Below, piece after piece: positions 1 to 8,452 of a stretch of 36,403 bases of DNA. Source of the DNA: Puniceicoccales bacterium (GTDB lineage: Bacteria; Verrucomicrobiota; Verrucomicrobiia; Opitutales; UBA953); the NCBI GenBank assembly GCA_031273045.1, contig JAISSQ010000057.1:1-36403 (forward strand), written 5' to 3'. The first letter of the stretch is position 1, and each line of letters opens with the position of its first letter. A program made the position numbers and the translations under genes. The notes beneath the pieces are model-generated. The model was not told the DNA's origin, ran no database searches, and saw nothing but the letters and a program-made list of their open reading frames with translations.

Positions 1-1449
1 GCCGGCGACCGCGCTGCCGACGGCGAACTCCGGTCCGAAATCGAGTTCGAGTTGACGCGGCGGCGGCGTGAAATCCTCGGCGGCGACCTTCGCGAGCAGC
101 CGGCTCTCGTCGGGCAGACACACCGGCACCAACGAGCAACGCGGGCACTTCGGCGAGTTGTCGAGCGGCGGCGGCAACGGCGCGTTGATGGCGGTGCGCG
201 CCTCGCCGATGGTGCGCTCAATCCACGCGACATCGCCGGCGGTGAGCGTGTAGGTGACGCGCTGCCGCGTGGCGCGGTAATAGACGATGCCGGTGTCGCA
301 CGGATAGCCGTTCTCGCGCAGCAACAGGATTTGCAGACCGAGTTGGATTTTGTCCGCCGGCCACAACGAATTCCCATCCTCGCCCTCGCGCGGCGCCCCC
401 CGCTTGTATTCGACGGGCACGAACGCGGCGTTGCCGGCGGCGTCGAACCCGCTCTCGACAAGGTCGAGTTTCGCCGTGACCCCCAGCGTGTCCGACCCCA
501 ACGACACCGAACGAACGTGAATGGTCTCCGGCGCCGCTGCCGCCGACGCCGCCGCCGCCGCCGACGCCGCCGGCGCCGGTGACGGCGACGCTGAATCCGC
601 CGGCGACGACGGAGACGTTGCCGCCGCCGGTGCCGCCGGCAACGCGCCCTTCCCGCTATCGAGCCGCTTGTGCTGCGCCTTCCCCTCGATGGTGTCGGCA
701 TTGTGCAGAAACACTCCCTCGACGTGCTCGTAGTAAAACAGCCGCGGACAATAAACGAACTCGTTGAGCATCCGCGCCGGAATGGGGTCAGGCGGGGAAG
801 TCGCCGGTTGGGAGCGGGGAGCGGGGAGCGGGGAGCAGGGAGGAGGTGCCGGCGACACAACGGTGACTGCCGGCGACGCTACCGGCAGTTCTTGCGCCGG
901 CGGCGGTGCGGCTACCGGCGGTGATGCGGTGGCTGCCGGCGGCACCGCTCCGCGCCCTTTCCGCCGGCGCGGTTCCGCCGCCGGTGACGTCGGTGCTGCC
1001 GGCAATTCGCACCCCTTGCATTTTGCGAGCCACGCGAGCGCGACCGCTACGGCGTGTTTGCAAAACGTCCCGCGCTGCCCGACCGGACACGTGCAACTCG
1101 CGCCGAACCGCGCCACCGCCGGCGCGTCGCTCGCCACCCCTTCCGCGCAAAACAACCGCGTCCGATAAACCGCCTCGCCTGTAATCTCCGCGCAAACCTC
1201 CCTCACTCCACCGGCACTGCCGCCGTCGTCACCGGCATCTCCAGCACCACCACCGGCACTGCCGACGCTCTCGCGAATTTCCCCGACCCGCCCTTCCCGC
1301 GCATATTCCGCCCCGCGCTGAAACGTTTTCTCGCCGGCGACTTCGCGCAGCAACTCCACCGACAGCAGCGCGTCCAAACCGTCCCCGCCGGCGGCGGAAG
1401 GGTTGGCGTTGGGGCGGGCATTTTCATCTCTGATTTCGGGATAAGACAT
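1..1449 (-). CDS. cas4: SWIM zinc finger fused to Cas4 (probable SWIM-Cas4-Cas1 CRISPR adaptation protein), partial
   Basis: One open frame starts at the ATG at 1449 and continues off the left edge (483 codons seen, no stop; an in-frame TGA lies upstream at 1470). Residues about 24-142 form a SWIM domain: the CxC at 119/121 and CKH at 130-132 complete a CxCx8CxH zinc site. Residues about 144-221 are an Ala/Pro linker. Residues about 222-450 are a Cas4 RecB-like nuclease: LNEFVYCPRLFYY (Cys234), AKLD (Asp329), VEYK (Glu347, Lys349), Gln369, and SPKCPRCS with CLPDE (Cys435, 438, 444), which with Cys234 would hold an iron-sulphur cluster. This Cas4 form is the one fused to Cas1 in type I-G (I-U) systems, where Cas4 selects and trims prespacers and Cas1 integrates them. 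The frame is cut where Cas1 should begin, so Cas1 is inferred. An Ala/Pro/Ser insert (about residues 265-305) interrupts Cas4. The gene lies 58 bases downstream of the alpha-2-macroglobulin gene on the same strand. Confidence 0.88.
   Translation of the reverse strand, partial: MSYPEIRDENARPNANPSAAGGDGLDALLSVELLREVAGEKTFQRGAEYAREGRVGEIRESVGSAGGGAGDAGDDGGSAGGVREVCAEITGEAVYRTRLFCAEGVASDAPAVARFGASCTCPVGQRGTFCKHAVAVALAWLAKCKGCELPAAPTSPAAEPRRRKGRGAVPPAATASPPVAAPPPAQELPVASPAVTVVSPAPPPCSPLPAPRSQPATSPPDPIPARMLNEFVYCPRLFYYEHVEGVFLHNADTIEGKAQHKRLDSGKGALPAAPAAATSPSSPADSASPSPAPAASAAAAASAAAAPETIHVRSVSLGSDTLGVTAKLDLVESGFDAAGNAAFVPVEYKRGAPREGEDGNSLWPADKIQLGLQILLLRENGYPCDTGIVYYRATRQRVTYTLTAGDVAWIERTIGEARTAINAPLPPPLDNSPKCPRCSLVPVCLPDESRLLAKVAAEDFTPPPRQLELDFGPEFAVGSAVAG
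811..841. repeat. GGGGAGC tandem repeat at the SWIM-Cas4 junction
   Basis: Four near-perfect 7-base copies of GGGGAGC (the last followed by AGG) sit inside the reading frame, between the Ala/Pro linker and the first conserved Cas4 residues. They are translated as a Pro/Ala/Ser/Arg stretch. A related run (GGGGAGCAG) occurs within the repeat insertion near 25290, so the unit is not unique to this gene. Confidence 0.75.
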
Positions 1450-1507
1450 AAAGTGACGCCGCCACGGTCACCGGCGTCCGTTTCGGCACCGGTGACGGAC
1501 GCCGCGC

Positions 1508-4500
1508 CTACTCCACGCGCAGGGGGGTGCTCGCGGAGCGGGAGGCGAAGGCGGGGGCGTAGGCGCTCTGGATTTCCGCGACGCCGCTCTGGAACAGGCC
1601 GCGGTTGCGGACGCGCATGTCGTATTCAAAGACGTGGGTGCCGGCGGGCAGGTGCGCGATGAAGAAGTGCGAGGCGGTGTCGCGCACGCTCTCGTAGTAG
1701 CCGAGGCCGGAGCGGTAGTGGTGTCCGCTCAAGACGTTCACGGGTTCGCAACCGCTGGGGCGCTGGTCCTTCAGGTGGATGAACTCCATGTCGCGGTCGG
1801 CGCGGATTTCGACGCGCACGACCAGCGTGTCGCCGAGGGCGAGCGGCGCGTTGCCGGCGGGGGCACCGGTCTTCGCGGTGGTGGTAGCGGCGGCGGAGTT
1901 CGCTCCGGCGGCGGCGGTGCCGGTGACGGGGACGAGGGTGTCGCCGGTGGCGGTGCGGACGCGCTTCCAGAGGGTCTTTCGGATGGTGAGCGGGGTGGCG
2001 GCGGCGGCGCGGATTTGTCCGAGGGGCTGGAAGTATTGCCACGCGACGCTCGCCCAAGAGACGCCGGCGTCGGGGCGGGTGACGCTGATGTGTCCGAGGG
2101 TGGGTTTGACGAGTGCGCCGGCGATGCGCTCGGAGTAGTAGCCGGTGCCGGCTTCGACGTTGCGCGGGGTGATGGCGGCGCCGCCAAGGGTGACGGTCGG
2201 TAGGGTGCCGGCGGCGAGGAGGGGGAAGGCGGCACCGGTGGCGGCGTTCGCGGGGCGGGTCGGAGACCCGCGCTCCTGAATCGGGTCGGAGACCCGCGCT
2301 CCCGCCGGCGGCGGCAGGAGGAGGGCGTAGACGGCGTCGGCGGTGGCGGAGGCGGTGGACCAGGCGCGGACTTGCTTTTGCGAAATCAGCCAGCGTTGGA
2401 GGGCGGCGACGGCGGGGGCGTCGGCGGCGACTTCGTTGAAGACCTCGATGGCGGCGGCTTGCGTTTCGAGCGGGGCGTTGCGCCACAGCCAGCCCTCGCG
2501 GGCGGCGGGCGGCCACCACATGCCTTGTTCGGGGTCGAGGCGGGCGCGTTCGCGCAGCGAGCGGACGATTCCGGCGGCGGCTTCGCGCTGTCCGGCGGTG
2601 GTGCCGGTGCGGTGGAGGGCGAGCGCGACGTGGCACTGCGACAGGAGCGGGAGCGTGGGCCAATAGACGCGCGCCTGCTCCCGATAAAAATCGAGCGCGG
2701 CGCGGACTTCGGCGGAGGTGCCGCCACCGGTGCCGCCGCTCGGCGGGAAGAAACTGCGGGCGTAGAGGTGGAACGCCTCGGCGGGACCGATGTGGTCCTC
2801 ACGGGAGGCGTCGGCGCCGCGCTGTTTGGCGGCGGCGAGCGCGGTCAAGTGGCTGCGGACGAGCGCGGCGTCGAGCGCGGCGATGGCGCGTTGGAGGAAG
2901 CGGGGAATCGCCGCGTTCCGCTCACCGGCGGCGGCGCGGAGTTTGCCGAAGCCGGCGACGATGCGGCGCGTGGTGTGCTCGGAGAGGTCGCCGCCCGGGC
3001 ACCACGGCCAGAACCCGTCGGGACGCTGCCGCTGCATGAGGTCGTTGAGCGCGGCGGCGACTTCGGCGGCGATGCGGCTCTTGTCGAAGAGGATGCCGAC
3101 GCGCCGGCGCGACGCGCTTTCGCCCTCGGCGTCGCGCACCCACGGGGTCTCTTCGAGGAGGACGCTTTTGAGGTCGGTGTTTTTGGCGAGGGGCGAGTCG
3201 AGCGCGGGCGTGTTTCGCCACTGCGCGAAGACGCGCTCGATGCGCGGGTCGGCGCCGGCGATGCGCGCGGCGAGCGAGTTGGCGTAGAGCCGGTGGAAGA
3301 GTTCGTCCGACCACTCGCGCCGTCCGGGCTCCATCAGCACCGGCAGCGCCATGACCGCATACCATGCGGGGTTCGAGACGACGCTGACGGTGAGCGCTTC
3401 GTGGCGGATTTGGCGCGCGGGGTCGGCGGATTCGAGCAGCGGGGCGAAGTCGCGTGTGACGGGGCGGAGGACGGCGGCGCTGCCGGCGGTTCCGGTTTCC
3501 GCCGCCGCCGAGGGGACGGCGAACGTGAGCGTGTCGGTGACGAGTTGCCGGCGCGGAAGGACGGGCAGGAAGCCCTCCTCGCCGTCGCTGAGCAGGCCGG
3601 CGGCGCCGACGGCCTTGTAGGTGAGCCAGCCGCGTCCGTCGGGCACGCGCACGCGCCACGACAGGGCGCGGGAGGAGCGCGCCGGCAGCGTGAACTCGCG
3701 CTCCGGCGCGGTGTTGCCGAGGGCGGCGTCAGCGGGGTCGAGCGTGGCGGCGTCGGCGAAGTTGAGCCGGACGCGGCCGGCGAGCGGGGCGTCGCCCTTG
3801 TTGGTGAGGCGGACGGCGATTTCGAGCGTGTCGCCCTCGCGGATGAACCGGGGCGCGTCGGGTTGCACCATGAAGTCCTTGGCGGTGACGATTGAGGCGT
3901 CGGCGAACGCGCCGGAGCGCAGTTGCCGGTCGTGGGCGAACGCGAGGAACCGCCAGCGGGTGAGCGCTTCCGGCGCGGTGAATTCGAGGCGCGCGCCGCC
4001 GTCCGGCTCGGCGATGAGCGCGGGGAAGAAGAACGCGGTCTCGCGCAGGTTCTGGCGCGCCGAGATTTGGTCGAGCGCGACGACGGCACCGGCGGCGGCG
4101 GCACCGGCACCACCGGTGGCGTCGGGCGAGGATTGGAGTTGGGAGGTTGCGATTTGGGCGTCGGCGGCACCGGCGGCGGCGACCGCGCTTTCTTTGACGC
4201 GGGCGAACGCAGGAGCGGCGGCGCGTGGCGCCGATACGCTCCGCGAGTCGAAAGCGGAGACCATGTTTACCCTCCGGTCCCGCATTTCCCACTTGGGGCG
4301 CCACGACTCCCACGTCCCCGCGATTTCCGCCGCCCAGTGCCGGTAGCATGCGGGGTAGGTCTGCTTGGAGAACGAGTCGGCGGTGGCGTTGGGGTGCTTG
4401 TCGTAGAGCCGGCGACCGGACTGGATGCCGTTGGCGAAGGCGAGCCGGCCGAACCACAGGCGCGATTCGTCGTAGAAGATGCCGGTGTCGCCGATGGCGC

Positions 4501-7500
4501 GCCACGTGTTGGCGCCGGCGAAGGCGTCGAGCGAGGCGTCGTAGAGCGCGGCGGCGATTTCGGCGGCGGCGGGCGAGCCGTCGGGGTTCCTCACGCGCAG
4601 CGTCCACGTCTCGCGTCCGCCCGGGGTGAGTTTCGAGTTGAAGCGCTCCCACGCGATGTCGAGCCGCTTGTCGTCCCACGGGACGCGGATGGCGCGCGCG
4701 CTTTCGTAGAAACGGTTCTCGGCGACCTGCCAGACGCGCACGGAGAAGCCGCCGCGAAGCGCGTCCGTCACCGGCAGCGTGACGAGTTGCTGCGTGCGCC
4801 CCGGCTCGGTCCAGAACGCGGCGAGCGTTTTGCCGCGATGGACGATTTCGACGCGGGCGCGGGCGGTCTCGTGCCCGCTGCGCCAGACGGCGGCGAAGGT
4901 GTCGCCCGGACGCAGCGTGTCGCGCCGGACTTCGAGCGCGAACGGCTCGCGCGAGACGGACTGCGCGGCGGCGGGGTCGGCGACGGTCACCTCGGCGCGG
5001 GCGGTGACGGGGGCACCGGCGGCGTCACGCGCGGTGACGACGGCGCGATAGACGCCGGCGTCGAGTTTGAGCGCGAGCGTGGCGACGCCCTTTTCGTTCG
5101 TGGTGAAGCGTTGCGAGGCGACGCCGTCGAGTTCCGCCCAGTGGCGCGGCTCGCCGCCGGTGGGCGCGTCGGGGTCGGCGTCGCCGCCGCCGTAGTCGTA
5201 GGCGTCCTCGCTGCCGAGGGGTTTTCGCAGGGCGCGCTCCGGTTGTTTGAGCGAGTAGATGACGAGGTTTCCGGCGAGCGGGCGCGGCTCGCCGTCGAGC
5301 GAGAACGTGCGGACGGTGAACGCCACCGGTGCCGCGGGCGACTGCCAGCCACCGGCGGTGACTTCGGCGGCGACGGCCGCGTAGCCGGCGACGACCGTGC
5401 GCGAGACGGCGCGGGTCTCGCCGGCGGCGTCCGTCACCTCGGCGCTGACCTCGTAGTGGAAGCGCGGCTCGGTCTTGGGGTCGGCGGTTTTGTCGGGCGC
5501 GGCGTTGAACGTGACGAGGAACGAGCCGTCGGCGGCGGTGCGGGTCTCGCCGCGCGCGATTTGGCGGGCGGTGCCGGCGCCGGCGCCGGCGGGGCGCCAC
5601 CAACACCAGTCCGGCCAGCGCGTGAGACGGCGCACCGTCCAGCGGACGCGCGCGGTGTCAACGGCGGCGCCGGTGTATTGGCGCGCGCTGCCGGCGAGGG
5701 TGACGCTGCCGCCGAGTTTGGGCGCGGCGACGGGCGCGTTGAGCGCGACCTCGAACTTCGGACGCTTGTATTCCTCGACGCGCAGGCCGGCGCGGCCGTT
5801 CTCGGCGCCGAGCGAGTGCAGTTGGTAGTAGCCGGTGAGGCGGCCGGCGGGGACGGTGAACGTGCCGTGCGCCGCGCCGAAGCCGTTCGTGGTGAGCGAG
5901 AGCGTCGCGGCGTCCTTGCCGTTAGGGTCGAGCAGGCCGACGGTGAGGCGGCGTCCGGCAGCGGGGCGGTATTCGGAGGTGTCGCGGTTTGCGGTGAAGA
6001 CGACGACCTTGAAGTGGATGGTCTGCCCGGGGCGGTAGATGGCGCGGTCGGTCAGGAAGTGCGCGTGGTAGCGCGTGCGGTCGGGCGGCGGCGCGCCGGC
6101 AACGTGTCCGGGGTGCGCGCGGTCGGAGGAGAGTTGCTGCCCGTCGGGCGCGGTGACGTGCAGGACGTCCGTTCCCCAGCCGATGCCGCGCTTGAGCGCG
6201 AACGCGCCGTCAGCACCGGTGACGGTCTCGGCGACCTTGACGCGCTCGACGGAGTCGCGCTCGCGCCGCCACACGGCGACCTTCGCGCCGGCGACCGGCT
6301 CGCCGCTGCCGGCGCGGGTGACGAAGCCGCCACCGGCGGCGGTTTCGGTCTCGCCGCCGAGCAGACCGCGCCGCGCACCGTGCCGGTTCGCGAAGACGAG
6401 CGCGAGGTCGCTCACCCAGAAGGGCATGACGGCGATGTCGGACGCGCGCGTGGAGAATTTCTCCGTCGAGGAGGCGATGACGAAGTAGAAGCCCGGCGCG
6501 AGGCCGTCGGGGACGGCGACGCGGTGCGGCGCCTCGATGTAGGGCGCGCGGGGCAGGTTCGCCGCCCACGCCTTCGCCGGCTCGCGGCGGAGCAGTTCGT
6601 CGAGTTCGGCGGTGTTGAGTTCGTGCGGCCGGTTGTGCGTGGCGGCGAGGTAGGCGGACCAGTCGGCGCGGACGACGCGCAGGAAAACGGTGTCGAGGTT
6701 TTGCGCGCGGACAGTGACGGAGCGCGGCGAGACGAACTCGCCGGCGAGCGAGACGAGCGCGCGCCGCTGCAAGGTGGCGATGACCTCACGGCAGGCGTCC
6801 GCGCCGGGCGACTGCGGGTGCAGCGCGGTTCCGAGCGAGGCGGACTTGAACGCTTCGAGCGCGCCGGCGGCGTCGTTCGGACGCGCGAGGAGCAGGCGGG
6901 CGAGGTCGGCGGCGGCGTCGGCGCTCGGCTCGTAGGCGCGCCATCGCTCGATGTGCGCGCGGAGGGCTTTTTCGACGCGCTCGCGCGCCTCGGCGGCGTT
7001 GCCCAGCGCGTCCCGCGCCCAGAGGATGCGGCGCCGGTCGGCGTCGGCGGCGGCGAGGTAGTTCTTGGTCTCGCCGATGTGGAAGCGCAGCAGCCGCTGG
7101 TAGAGCGCGATGACGGTCGCGTCGGGCGACGCCGCCGGCGCGCGCGGCGTCCATTTCAGGAACTCCTCGACGCCGCCCAGCAGCGGCGAATCTGCGTTCA
7201 GTTCAAAGTGCTCCTCGGACTGCGCGCCGCCCTGCTCGCCGAGCGAGTGGAACTCGATGGCGTCGGCGGCGACGAAGTCGAAGAGCGTCGGGCGGTAGGT
7301 GTCGGGACGCTCGGCGGCACCGGTGGTGAGCGAGCGAGGGAACGCGGTGACGGGCACGGCCTTGAGCGCGGGGGCGTCGGAGAGGGCGAGCGCGAGCAGG
7401 GCGGCGATTTCGGCGCGGACGCGCGAGGCGTCCCACGTGAGGAAGTCGGTGTCCTCGGAGACGGTCGCCGAGCGGCGCAGCAGCGTGCTGCGGTTCTCGT

Positions 7501-8197
7501 TGTAGTATGCCTGCCAGACGCGCGCGAGGGCGGCGGCGAGCAGCGGACGCACCGCCGGCGGTGCCGTTTCGAGGCGCGAGCGCAGGGCGCGGATTTGGGT
7601 GGCGCGGGGATTTTGCGCGCCGGCGGCGCCGAGTGCGTCGGCTTCGAGGACGCTCGCGCGCAAGAGCGCGTCGTTGTCGCCGGCGGCACCGGCGGTGGTG
7701 ATGATTTTGCCGAGCGCGGCGAGGGCGGTTTTGGGGAGGCGTTTCTCGGTGGCGTCGGCGACAATCACCCACAGCGAGTGGATGTCCTCGTTGCCGGTGA
7801 GGACGATTTCGTCGGGCACTGGCGCGACCGCCGCCGGTGCCGCCGGTGCCGCCGGTGCCGGGGCGGGCGCCACCGGCGCGGGGCGGACTGTTGCGGCGGT
7901 GCCGCCGCCGGCGGGGGCTTCGGGGGCGGCAACTGGCGGGATTTCGACGGGCACGGCGCGGGCGCCGGCACCACCGGTGGCGGGCTGCGGCGCAACGGGG
8001 ATTTCGACGGCGCGAGCGCCGGCTCCGGCGCCGGTGGCGGGGGCGGCGTCCTGCGCGAAGCATTGCGGCGCGCCGCCGGTGGTGTTCGCTAGGGCGGAGA
8101 GGAGCGTCAGCAGCGCGGCGGCGAGGACTTTGCCGAATAACGTTTGCGTCGGACTTTTGCGGGTGGTTTTCGGCGGGAAAACGGCGGATGTTTGCAT
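1508..8197 (-). CDS. Alpha-2-macroglobulin family protein lacking the thioester motif
   Basis: This is a 2,229-residue secreted or periplasmic protein. Bacterial alpha-2-macroglobulins are thought to trap foreign proteases in the envelope. The ATG at 8197 is preferred over one at 8251 because a signal peptide follows directly: basic N-terminus, hydrophobic residues 24-37, probable cleavage after Cys-Phe-Ala (46-48). An Ala/Pro-rich segment comes next. An MG2-type motif (TDRAIYRPGQTIHFK) lies near residue 715, the macroglobulin core near 1,380-1,420 (FPALIAEPDGGARLEF), and the alpha/alpha barrel shows DGFWPWCPGG. Where Bacteroidetes-type relatives have PYECxEQTF before the YANALA segment, this protein has EPGRREWSDELF, so the thioester Cys and Gln are absent. 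Its length exceeds that of typical relatives (about 1,500-2,000). A pair of REP-like repeats is translated within the C-terminal third. It is divergent from the vWA gene and upstream of the SWIM-Cas4 gene. Confidence 0.88.
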   Translation of the reverse strand: MQTSAVFPPKTTRKSPTQTLFGKVLAAALLTLLSALANTTGGAPQCFAQDAAPATGAGAGARAVEIPVAPQPATGGAGARAVPVEIPPVAAPEAPAGGGTAATVRPAPVAPAPAPAAPAAPAAVAPVPDEIVLTGNEDIHSLWVIVADATEKRLPKTALAALGKIITTAGAAGDNDALLRASVLEADALGAAGAQNPRATQIRALRSRLETAPPAVRPLLAAALARVWQAYYNENRSTLLRRSATVSEDTDFLTWDASRVRAEIAALLALALSDAPALKAVPVTAFPRSLTTGAAERPDTYRPTLFDFVAADAIEFHSLGEQGGAQSEEHFELNADSPLLGGVEEFLKWTPRAPAASPDATVIALYQRLLRFHIGETKNYLAAADADRRRILWARDALGNAAEARERVEKALRAHIERWRAYEPSADAAADLARLLLARPNDAAGALEAFKSASLGTALHPQSPGADACREVIATLQRRALVSLAGEFVSPRSVTVRAQNLDTVFLRVVRADWSAYLAATHNRPHELNTAELDELLRREPAKAWAANLPRAPYIEAPHRVAVPDGLAPGFYFVIASSTEKFSTRASDIAVMPFWVSDLALVFANRHGARRGLLGGETETAAGGGFVTRAGSGEPVAGAKVAVWRRERDSVERVKVAETVTGADGAFALKRGIGWGTDVLHVTAPDGQQLSSDRAHPGHVAGAPPPDRTRYHAHFLTDRAIYRPGQTIHFKVVVFTANRDTSEYRPAAGRRLTVGLLDPNGKDAATLSLTTNGFGAAHGTFTVPAGRLTGYYQLHSLGAENGRAGLRVEEYKRPKFEVALNAPVAAPKLGGSVTLAGSARQYTGAAVDTARVRWTVRRLTRWPDWCWWRPAGAGAGTARQIARGETRTAADGSFLVTFNAAPDKTADPKTEPRFHYEVSAEVTDAAGETRAVSRTVVAGYAAVAAEVTAGGWQSPAAPVAFTVRTFSLDGEPRPLAGNLVIYSLKQPERALRKPLGSEDAYDYGGGDADPDAPTGGEPRHWAELDGVASQRFTTNEKGVATLALKLDAGVYRAVVTARDAAGAPVTARAEVTVADPAAAQSVSREPFALEVRRDTLRPGDTFAAVWRSGHETARARVEIVHRGKTLAAFWTEPGRTQQLVTLPVTDALRGGFSVRVWQVAENRFYESARAIRVPWDDKRLDIAWERFNSKLTPGGRETWTLRVRNPDGSPAAAEIAAALYDASLDAFAGANTWRAIGDTGIFYDESRLWFGRLAFANGIQSGRRLYDKHPNATADSFSKQTYPACYRHWAAEIAGTWESWRPKWEMRDRRVNMVSAFDSRSVSAPRAAAPAFARVKESAVAAAGAADAQIATSQLQSSPDATGGAGAAAAGAVVALDQISARQNLRETAFFFPALIAEPDGGARLEFTAPEALTRWRFLAFAHDRQLRSGAFADASIVTAKDFMVQPDAPRFIREGDTLEIAVRLTNKGDAPLAGRVRLNFADAATLDPADAALGNTAPEREFTLPARSSRALSWRVRVPDGRGWLTYKAVGAAGLLSDGEEGFLPVLPRRQLVTDTLTFAVPSAAAETGTAGSAAVLRPVTRDFAPLLESADPARQIRHEALTVSVVSNPAWYAVMALPVLMEPGRREWSDELFHRLYANSLAARIAGADPRIERVFAQWRNTPALDSPLAKNTDLKSVLLEETPWVRDAEGESASRRRVGILFDKSRIAAEVAAALNDLMQRQRPDGFWPWCPGGDLSEHTTRRIVAGFGKLRAAAGERNAAIPRFLQRAIAALDAALVRSHLTALAAAKQRGADASREDHIGPAEAFHLYARSFFPPSGGTGGGTSAEVRAALDFYREQARVYWPTLPLLSQCHVALALHRTGTTAGQREAAAGIVRSLRERARLDPEQGMWWPPAAREGWLWRNAPLETQAAAIEVFNEVAADAPAVAALQRWLISQKQVRAWSTASATADAVYALLLPPPAGARVSDPIQERGSPTRPANAATGAAFPLLAAGTLPTVTLGGAAITPRNVEAGTGYYSERIAGALVKPTLGHISVTRPDAGVSWASVAWQYFQPLGQIRAAAATPLTIRKTLWKRVRTATGDTLVPVTGTAAAGANSAAATTTAKTGAPAGNAPLALGDTLVVRVEIRADRDMEFIHLKDQRPSGCEPVNVLSGHHYRSGLGYYESVRDTASHFFIAHLPAGTHVFEYDMRVRNRGLFQSGVAEIQSAYAPAFASRSASTPLRVE
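2256..2302. repeat. Two REP-like 21-base direct copies inside the alpha-2-macroglobulin gene
   Basis: Identical 21-base units lie at 2256-2276 and 2282-2302. Each has an imperfect palindrome, CGGGTC-GGA-GACCCG, followed by CGCTCC. They are read in frame as part of the protein (near GARVSDPIQERGSPTRP). The layout of a palindrome with a GGAGCGC tail (on the minus strand) matches the larger element at 25671-25816 although the palindrome sequence differs. Confidence 0.8.
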
Positions 8198-8452
8198 GGG
8201 AAACAATGGCTGAAAGTGGTGTCGGCGACCGACCCCGACACCCTGCCGCATTCCCCGTGCACGGGCAAGTTTCGCATTGCCGGCGGGAAATTGGGGCGGC
8301 GGAGCGACGGGCGTGCTTGGCGGAAAACAAGCAACCTTCGCTGCCGGTGGCTGTCATTCCACGCGCCCGCTTCCGCCCCGTTTTCCGCGCCGTCCCGCCC
8401 GCCCCCTTCCCCGCCCTTTCCGCGCCATCTCCCGCCCAACGCTTCGCCCCGC
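8198..8452. promoter_or_regulatory. Divergent intergenic region, alpha-2-macroglobulin / vWA
   Basis: This 255-base region separates two divergent start codons and must hold both promoters if the chosen starts are right. I could not pick out convincing -35/-10 boxes, an operator or a riboswitch. It is pyrimidine-rich on the plus strand near the vWA start and lacks a Shine-Dalgarno sequence before either gene. Confidence 0.35.

Follow-up and report, generated by a model that had tools for sequence, protein, structure and literature searches.

A SWIM zinc-finger module in one reading frame with a type I-G Cas4 in a draft Puniceicoccales genome

In the biochemically studied type I-G Cas4/1 proteins the PAM end is cut by Cas4 while integration is performed by Cas1 (PMC10504553). 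SWIM domains are named among the genes linked to CRISPR adaptation modules in the legend to Fig. 6B of Altae-Tran et al. 2023 (PMC10910872), and this entry in the legend tempers the novelty of a SWIM-Cas4 join and adds some weight to a functional link. In a literature search combining SWIM and Cas4 we retrieved only papers that have the two as separate genes. SWIM itself is a zinc domain of the DNA- or protein-binding type. Among phage-defence candidates, PDC-S62-type homologues in the phylum are mostly ~580 aa long and combine an N-terminal SWIM with a TPR/DUF6880-like rest.

We report that in the window, i.e. the whole stretch of 36,403 nucleotides that was analysed (contig C215, plus strand, of the draft genome G000; 3.12 Mb in 247 contigs, 84% complete), a SWIM module precedes a type I-G Cas4, and that SWIM, Cas4 and Cas1 (the latter on contig C12) are supported as one continuous frame as far as the middle of Cas1. 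The features are as follows:

1..119, minus strand: exact 119-nt overlap with contig C12, leading to Cas1 (frame broken) and Cas2
1..1449, minus strand: SWIM-linker-Cas4 open reading frame, ATG at 1449, leaving the contig end in the direction of Cas1
79..783, minus strand: type I-G Cas4 domain, residues 223-457, with the motifs YCPRLF, AKLDLVE, VEYKRG and KCPRCSLVPVC
523..657, minus strand: low-complexity loop within Cas4, residues 265-309, matched in position by a variable loop in relatives
784..1011, minus strand: P/A-rich linker, predicted disordered, residues 147-222
810..842, plus strand: heptanucleotide repeat (GGGAGCG/GGGAGCA)n in the linker, 3 matches, 0 in shuffles
1012..1377, minus strand: SWIM module (helices, beta meander, zinc site, helix), residues 25-146
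1054..1095, minus strand: SWIM zinc ligands CTCPVGQRGTFCKH, residues 119-132
1450..1507, minus strand: hairpin-rich gap from the upstream stop to the SWIM ATG, -40.5 kcal/mol, z -3.9 for 1440-1515
1508..8251, minus strand: upstream gene for a bacterial alpha-2-macroglobulin (not a cas gene), on the same strand as SWIM-Cas4

Translation of the minus strand from 1449 to 1 gave 483 residues without a stop, in agreement with the original prediction of one uninterrupted frame of at least 483 codons holding both SWIM and Cas4 (the frame stays open for 489 codons up to the contig end), and the SWIM-Cas4 chimera is real in the sequence. The window is G+C-rich and 47% of all its 76-codon stretches are free of stops, so the open linker alone is weak evidence. 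The third-position G+C content is 0.67-0.77 over SWIM and linker vs 0.80-0.88 over Cas4, which fits, but does not prove, separate origins of the two parts. The hairpin that separates the SWIM ATG from the stop of the alpha-2-macroglobulin gene is a possible terminator or translational block.

The complete CxCx8CxH motif predicted at residues 119-132 was confirmed, with C119, C121, C130 and H132 as the zinc ligands and a match to Pfam PF04434 at residues 116-140 (27.6 bits, cut-off 19.6, E 2e-6); hence both hallmarks of a SWIM zinc finger, the CxCx(n)CxH ligands and a score above the gathering score, were found. In PADLOC, moreover, residues 84-143 match PDC-S62 (E 6e-8) and residues 29-140 match DpdE (E 1.5e-4), and the module is 25-36% identical to five SWIM N-termini. 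In the AlphaFold model, which was built using relatives of both the SWIM and the Cas4 parts, the pLDDT of the module is mostly 83-97, low-complexity loops excepted, and most of Cas4 is likewise modelled with high confidence. A chance occurrence of the SWIM pattern is ruled out by the concurrence of Pfam, PADLOC and the confident model. The fold search of the PDB returned Cas4 and related nucleases only, and no counterpart of the SWIM module; a search of plasmids with the SWIM part alone returned general SWIM proteins. The PDC-S62 match covers profile positions 44-93 only, not the full length (~566 residues), such that the module corresponds to the N-terminal ~95 of 566 positions. The same holds for DpdE (SWIM plus helicase), with a match limited to the first ~95 of its 1055-1282 positions. 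In G005, a genome of the same genus, a Wadjet jetABCD-type operon is followed directly by a PDC-S62-type SWIM protein (L079, contig C258, 353-8847), and in G098 a Wadjet operon directly adjoins Cas4/1 (L081, contig C128, 4818-12356).

The Cas4 is an ordinary type I-G Cas4, 58-65% identical to those of relatives. It matches PF01930 (E 2e-15), NF049935 (cas4g_cas1g, E 7e-63 over residues 223-457) and Cas1g in PADLOC (E 7e-45), and the closest PDB chain, 7mi4_A, is itself a Cas4/Cas1 fusion. The motifs are intact and include the four cysteines and the PD-(D/E)XK residues of the nuclease domain; the claim that all expected nuclease and cluster residues are present is thereby borne out.

The linker between the two parts comprises ~75 residues and the pLDDT is below 50 (very low) over residues 165-216, i.e. 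AlphaFold predicts a disordered tether. Many Verrucomicrobiota Cas4/1 proteins carry P/A-rich N-terminal extensions of 50-200 residues before PARMLNEF; comparison with these proteins suggests that a long disordered stretch at this point is normal for the family and that the natural start could lie inside it. The Verrucomicrobiota Cas4/1 of the loci L193, L196, L198, L201, L207, L211, L213 and L217 have a brief N-terminal stretch in common, YRTARALYPHRP...EPLP.P.DHPE..L, which is conserved and lies ahead of the Cas4 domain.

We consider it unlikely that two proteins are made, with Cas4/1 starting in the linker (TTG149, GTG169 or GTG198) or at ATG227 and the SWIM frame merely reading in. The start of most order-level relatives lies ~12-22 codons before NEFVYC (others have the long P/A-rich extensions), and TTG149 and GTG169 are preceded by purine-rich stretches (AAGGGG, GGAAAGGG); nothing of the kind precedes the SWIM ATG, which lies behind the strong hairpin. 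However, there is no stop to end a SWIM-only protein, which means that a ribosome that starts at SWIM makes the fusion, and initiation at ATG227 would lose the conserved PAR residues. The latter point upholds one half of the earlier argument against a separate Cas4 start; the other half, that the in-frame GTG and TTG codons lack Shine-Dalgarno sequences, is weakened by AAGGGG and GGAAAGGG and would apply equally to the SWIM ATG, which has no such stretch, so that Shine-Dalgarno sequences cannot tell the candidate starts apart.

The last 119 nt of the SWIM-Cas4 frame are also the start of contig C12, where the protein continues in frame. A shared end of this kind is as expected for a de Bruijn assembly break, and Cas4 runs across the join exactly as in relatives. 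C12 encodes a Cas1 domain, Cas2 (PF09827, E 1e-19) and a PIN-domain protein. Extension to the left of position 1 in search of Cas1, as had been proposed, thus recovered it across the 119-nt join, and the possibility that there is no Cas1 to the left is excluded by the presence of both Cas1 and Cas2 on C12. The predicted fusion to Cas1 can be followed in frame on C12 up to FSGML, after which the frame of the assembled sequence changes in the central linker of Cas1. Specifically, when the relative G098 was aligned to C12, the match follows frame +3 as far as FSGML (nt 731; 56% identity) and resumes at nt 893 in frame +2, which it keeps to the end (73% identity). The frame is broken between ~754 and ~890 of C12 (L003), the C-terminal half is intact in the other frame, and the third-position G+C content gives a strong coding signal on either side of the break, in different frames. 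With Cas1 out of frame, the SWIM-Cas4 product would be unable to complete the reaction in which Cas4 cuts and Cas1 integrates.

The heptanucleotide repeat is present both in the SWIM-Cas4 linker (window 810-842) and at the Cas1 break (L003 760-785). Genome-wide, G000 has 87 exact 19-base matches to (GGGAGCG)n (control 0) and ~45 repeat sites, among them 2022-2058, 2556-2581 and 2706-2742 of L227; no (GGGAGCG)n was found in eight genomes of the same genus. The tract has no stop in any frame, and at 17 of the 20 tracts examined, uvrA included, the coding signal crosses in one frame; it is thus not the tract within a gene that stands out in this genome but the break in Cas1. Such (GGGAGCG/A)n tracts in genes resemble in-frame selfish inserts, e.g. 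the Rickettsia palindromic elements. Some of the copies face each other and have AAGGGAT/AAGGGCA 7-base repeats alongside. In UvrA (TIGR00630, 768 bits; L227, contig C159, 2-2995) the second ATPase is interrupted in frame by ~60 heptad-derived residues that separate the ABC signature from Walker B, and a shorter insert lies further upstream.

With one extra heptad unit in the linker, the SWIM frame would run into a TGA at codon 222, immediately ahead of PARMLNEF. This speaks for an assembly or strain mosaic, where the heptad tract or the contig end has joined pieces that share one frame in no cell, as does the break of the contig within Cas4, from which we infer that the assembly graph branched there. 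We regard a mosaic as decidedly unlikely: the tract of ~35 nt is far below the 119-nt overlap word, Cas4 matches relatives exactly across the join, and most of the tracts examined are coded through in one frame, as noted. Phase switching through the linker tract is possible, and no variant of the linker with another heptad count was seen. That SWIM-Cas4-Cas1 as a whole is phase-variable, with the linker tract setting SWIM and Cas4 as fused or separate and the tract in the Cas1 linker setting Cas1 on or off, such that spacer acquisition would itself vary by phase, appears highly improbable.

In relatives, full I-G loci have the order cas3, cas8, cas7, cas5/6, cas4/1 and cas2 (ORF order, with matches to Cas5/6 and Csx17). 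In G000 the gene ahead of SWIM-Cas4 is instead that of the alpha-2-macroglobulin. The search for the remaining I-G genes, also suggested earlier, was successful for Cas2, a Cas5/6 remnant and the start of cas3 but not for cas7 and cas8. Contig C159 carries uvrA followed by the Cas5/6 remnant (the C-terminal 190 residues, 62% identical to G112, with one internal stop) and the start of cas3 at the contig end. No cas8 was detected in this genome (84% complete, 247 contigs); the cas7 model gave no match and was also silent in the controls, i.e. it is a model without a positive control, and the csx17 model likewise gave no match in the 84% complete genome, a model that also misses two relatives. 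Neither an intact effector module nor an I-G array was seen in this genome at its 84% completeness. The I-G system looks eroded, and the missing genes may be unassembled. The locus probably no longer acquires spacers, or does so poorly, given the out-of-frame Cas1 and effector genes that were either recovered as fragments or not detected. A second, separate CRISPR locus with Cas1 (360 aa), Cas2 and an array of 11 repeats (GTCCCCAAAAACCCATCAGCCGACAGGCATTGATGAC) is present on contig C183 (L218, 2998-5850), where the heptads CAGTGGT and CATCCTT occur before cas1 and between cas1 and cas2.

The fusion was also sought elsewhere. No SWIM pattern was found in the Cas4 frame or in flanking sequence of up to 5 kb in 80 public Cas4/1 loci (L138-L217), and none on the ~20 Cas4/1 proteins in relatives; the search of Cas4-Cas1 homologues for an N-terminal SWIM that had been called for was thus carried out over both sets and returned none. 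SWIM and Cas4 motifs in one frame occurred in the window alone among loci from 141 relatives, 388 genomes of the phylum and 273 of the order, three overlapping sets. The null result in the 80 public loci led us to reject SWIM as a regular part of I-G systems. In other genomes, long Cas4/1 frames are not SWIM fusions, since what extends them is either disordered or a short stretch of the YRTARALYPHRP type, and a plasmid or phage source of the fusion was rejected because those collections match the Cas4 part only. Judged by the sequences compared, the SWIM-Cas4/Cas1 join is unique so far among the loci searched.

Our preferred reading, to which we assign a probability of roughly 0.55, is that the gene is a chimera specific to this lineage, in an I-G locus that is breaking up. 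A SWIM protein of the PDC-S62/DpdE type would have contributed its N-terminal module, which a disordered linker connects to the N-terminus of an ordinary I-G Cas4/Cas1. The joining most likely took place in this lineage, e.g. when the remainder of the SWIM protein was deleted together with the DNA in between; no ancestral arrangement that would support a deletion was found in the genomes searched. Translation from the SWIM start would give SWIM-Cas4 plus the N-terminal half of Cas1, and SWIM, on its flexible tether, may provide Cas4 (the nuclease for the PAM end) with a contact to nucleic acid or protein. The original prediction went further in proposing that SWIM could add target selection to spacer acquisition, a proposal that we do not uphold, with Cas1 frame-broken, the effectors eroded and no second genome with the fusion.

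As a counterpoint to erosion, the SWIM ligands and Cas4 motifs are all intact and both Cas1 halves are well conserved, which implies either that any decay is very recent or that misassembly or strain variation accounts for the Cas1 break. In the latter case the locus might encode a working SWIM-Cas4-Cas1 acquisition enzyme, where SWIM would tether Cas4/1-Cas2 to DNA ends or to a partner (e.g. a nuclease-helicase) and bias prespacer capture. The conserved zinc ligands, Cas4 residues and Cas1 halves argue for such an enzyme, as do the disordered and hence permissive linker, the fact that N-terminal extensions are normal among Cas4/1 proteins, and the listing of SWIM with adaptation modules in the Fig. 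6B legend (PMC10910872). Given that the fusion is found in one genome only, with Cas1 out of frame and neither an intact effector module nor an I-G array seen, and that the 80 other Cas4/1 loci have no SWIM nearby, we view a working enzyme as a tentative and rather doubtful alternative.

A functional chimera would amount to a Cas4/Cas1 with its own recruitment module and could be tested directly for biased prespacer choice. Even as a scar in an eroding locus, it would indicate that a foreign domain can be accommodated in the disordered N-terminal extension found in many Verrucomicrobiota Cas4/1. Moreover, the chimera draws attention to an unusual genome, with 7-base repeats that many genes read through in frame.

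Compared with the type I-G Cas4/Cas1 fusions (Geobacter sulfurreducens, PDB 7MI4; MbCas4/1, PMC10504553; NF049935), the window likewise has a Cas4 with all motifs, followed by Cas1 and Cas2 on C12, but adds an N-terminal SWIM and a 75-residue linker, and its Cas1 frame is broken. With PDC-S62 (a PADLOC phage-defence candidate of SWIM plus TPR/DUF6880-like parts, ~580 aa) it has the N-terminal SWIM module in common, whereas the C-terminal ~470 residues are absent and Cas4/Cas1 stands in their place. DpdE of the Dpd system, where SWIM sits on a helicase, and the window both put SWIM at the N-terminus of a larger DNA-acting protein, with nuclease and integrase parts instead of the helicase in the window. 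Finally, as for the SWIM genes named with CRISPR adaptation modules in the Fig. 6B legend (PMC10910872), SWIM and an adaptation module occur together in the window.
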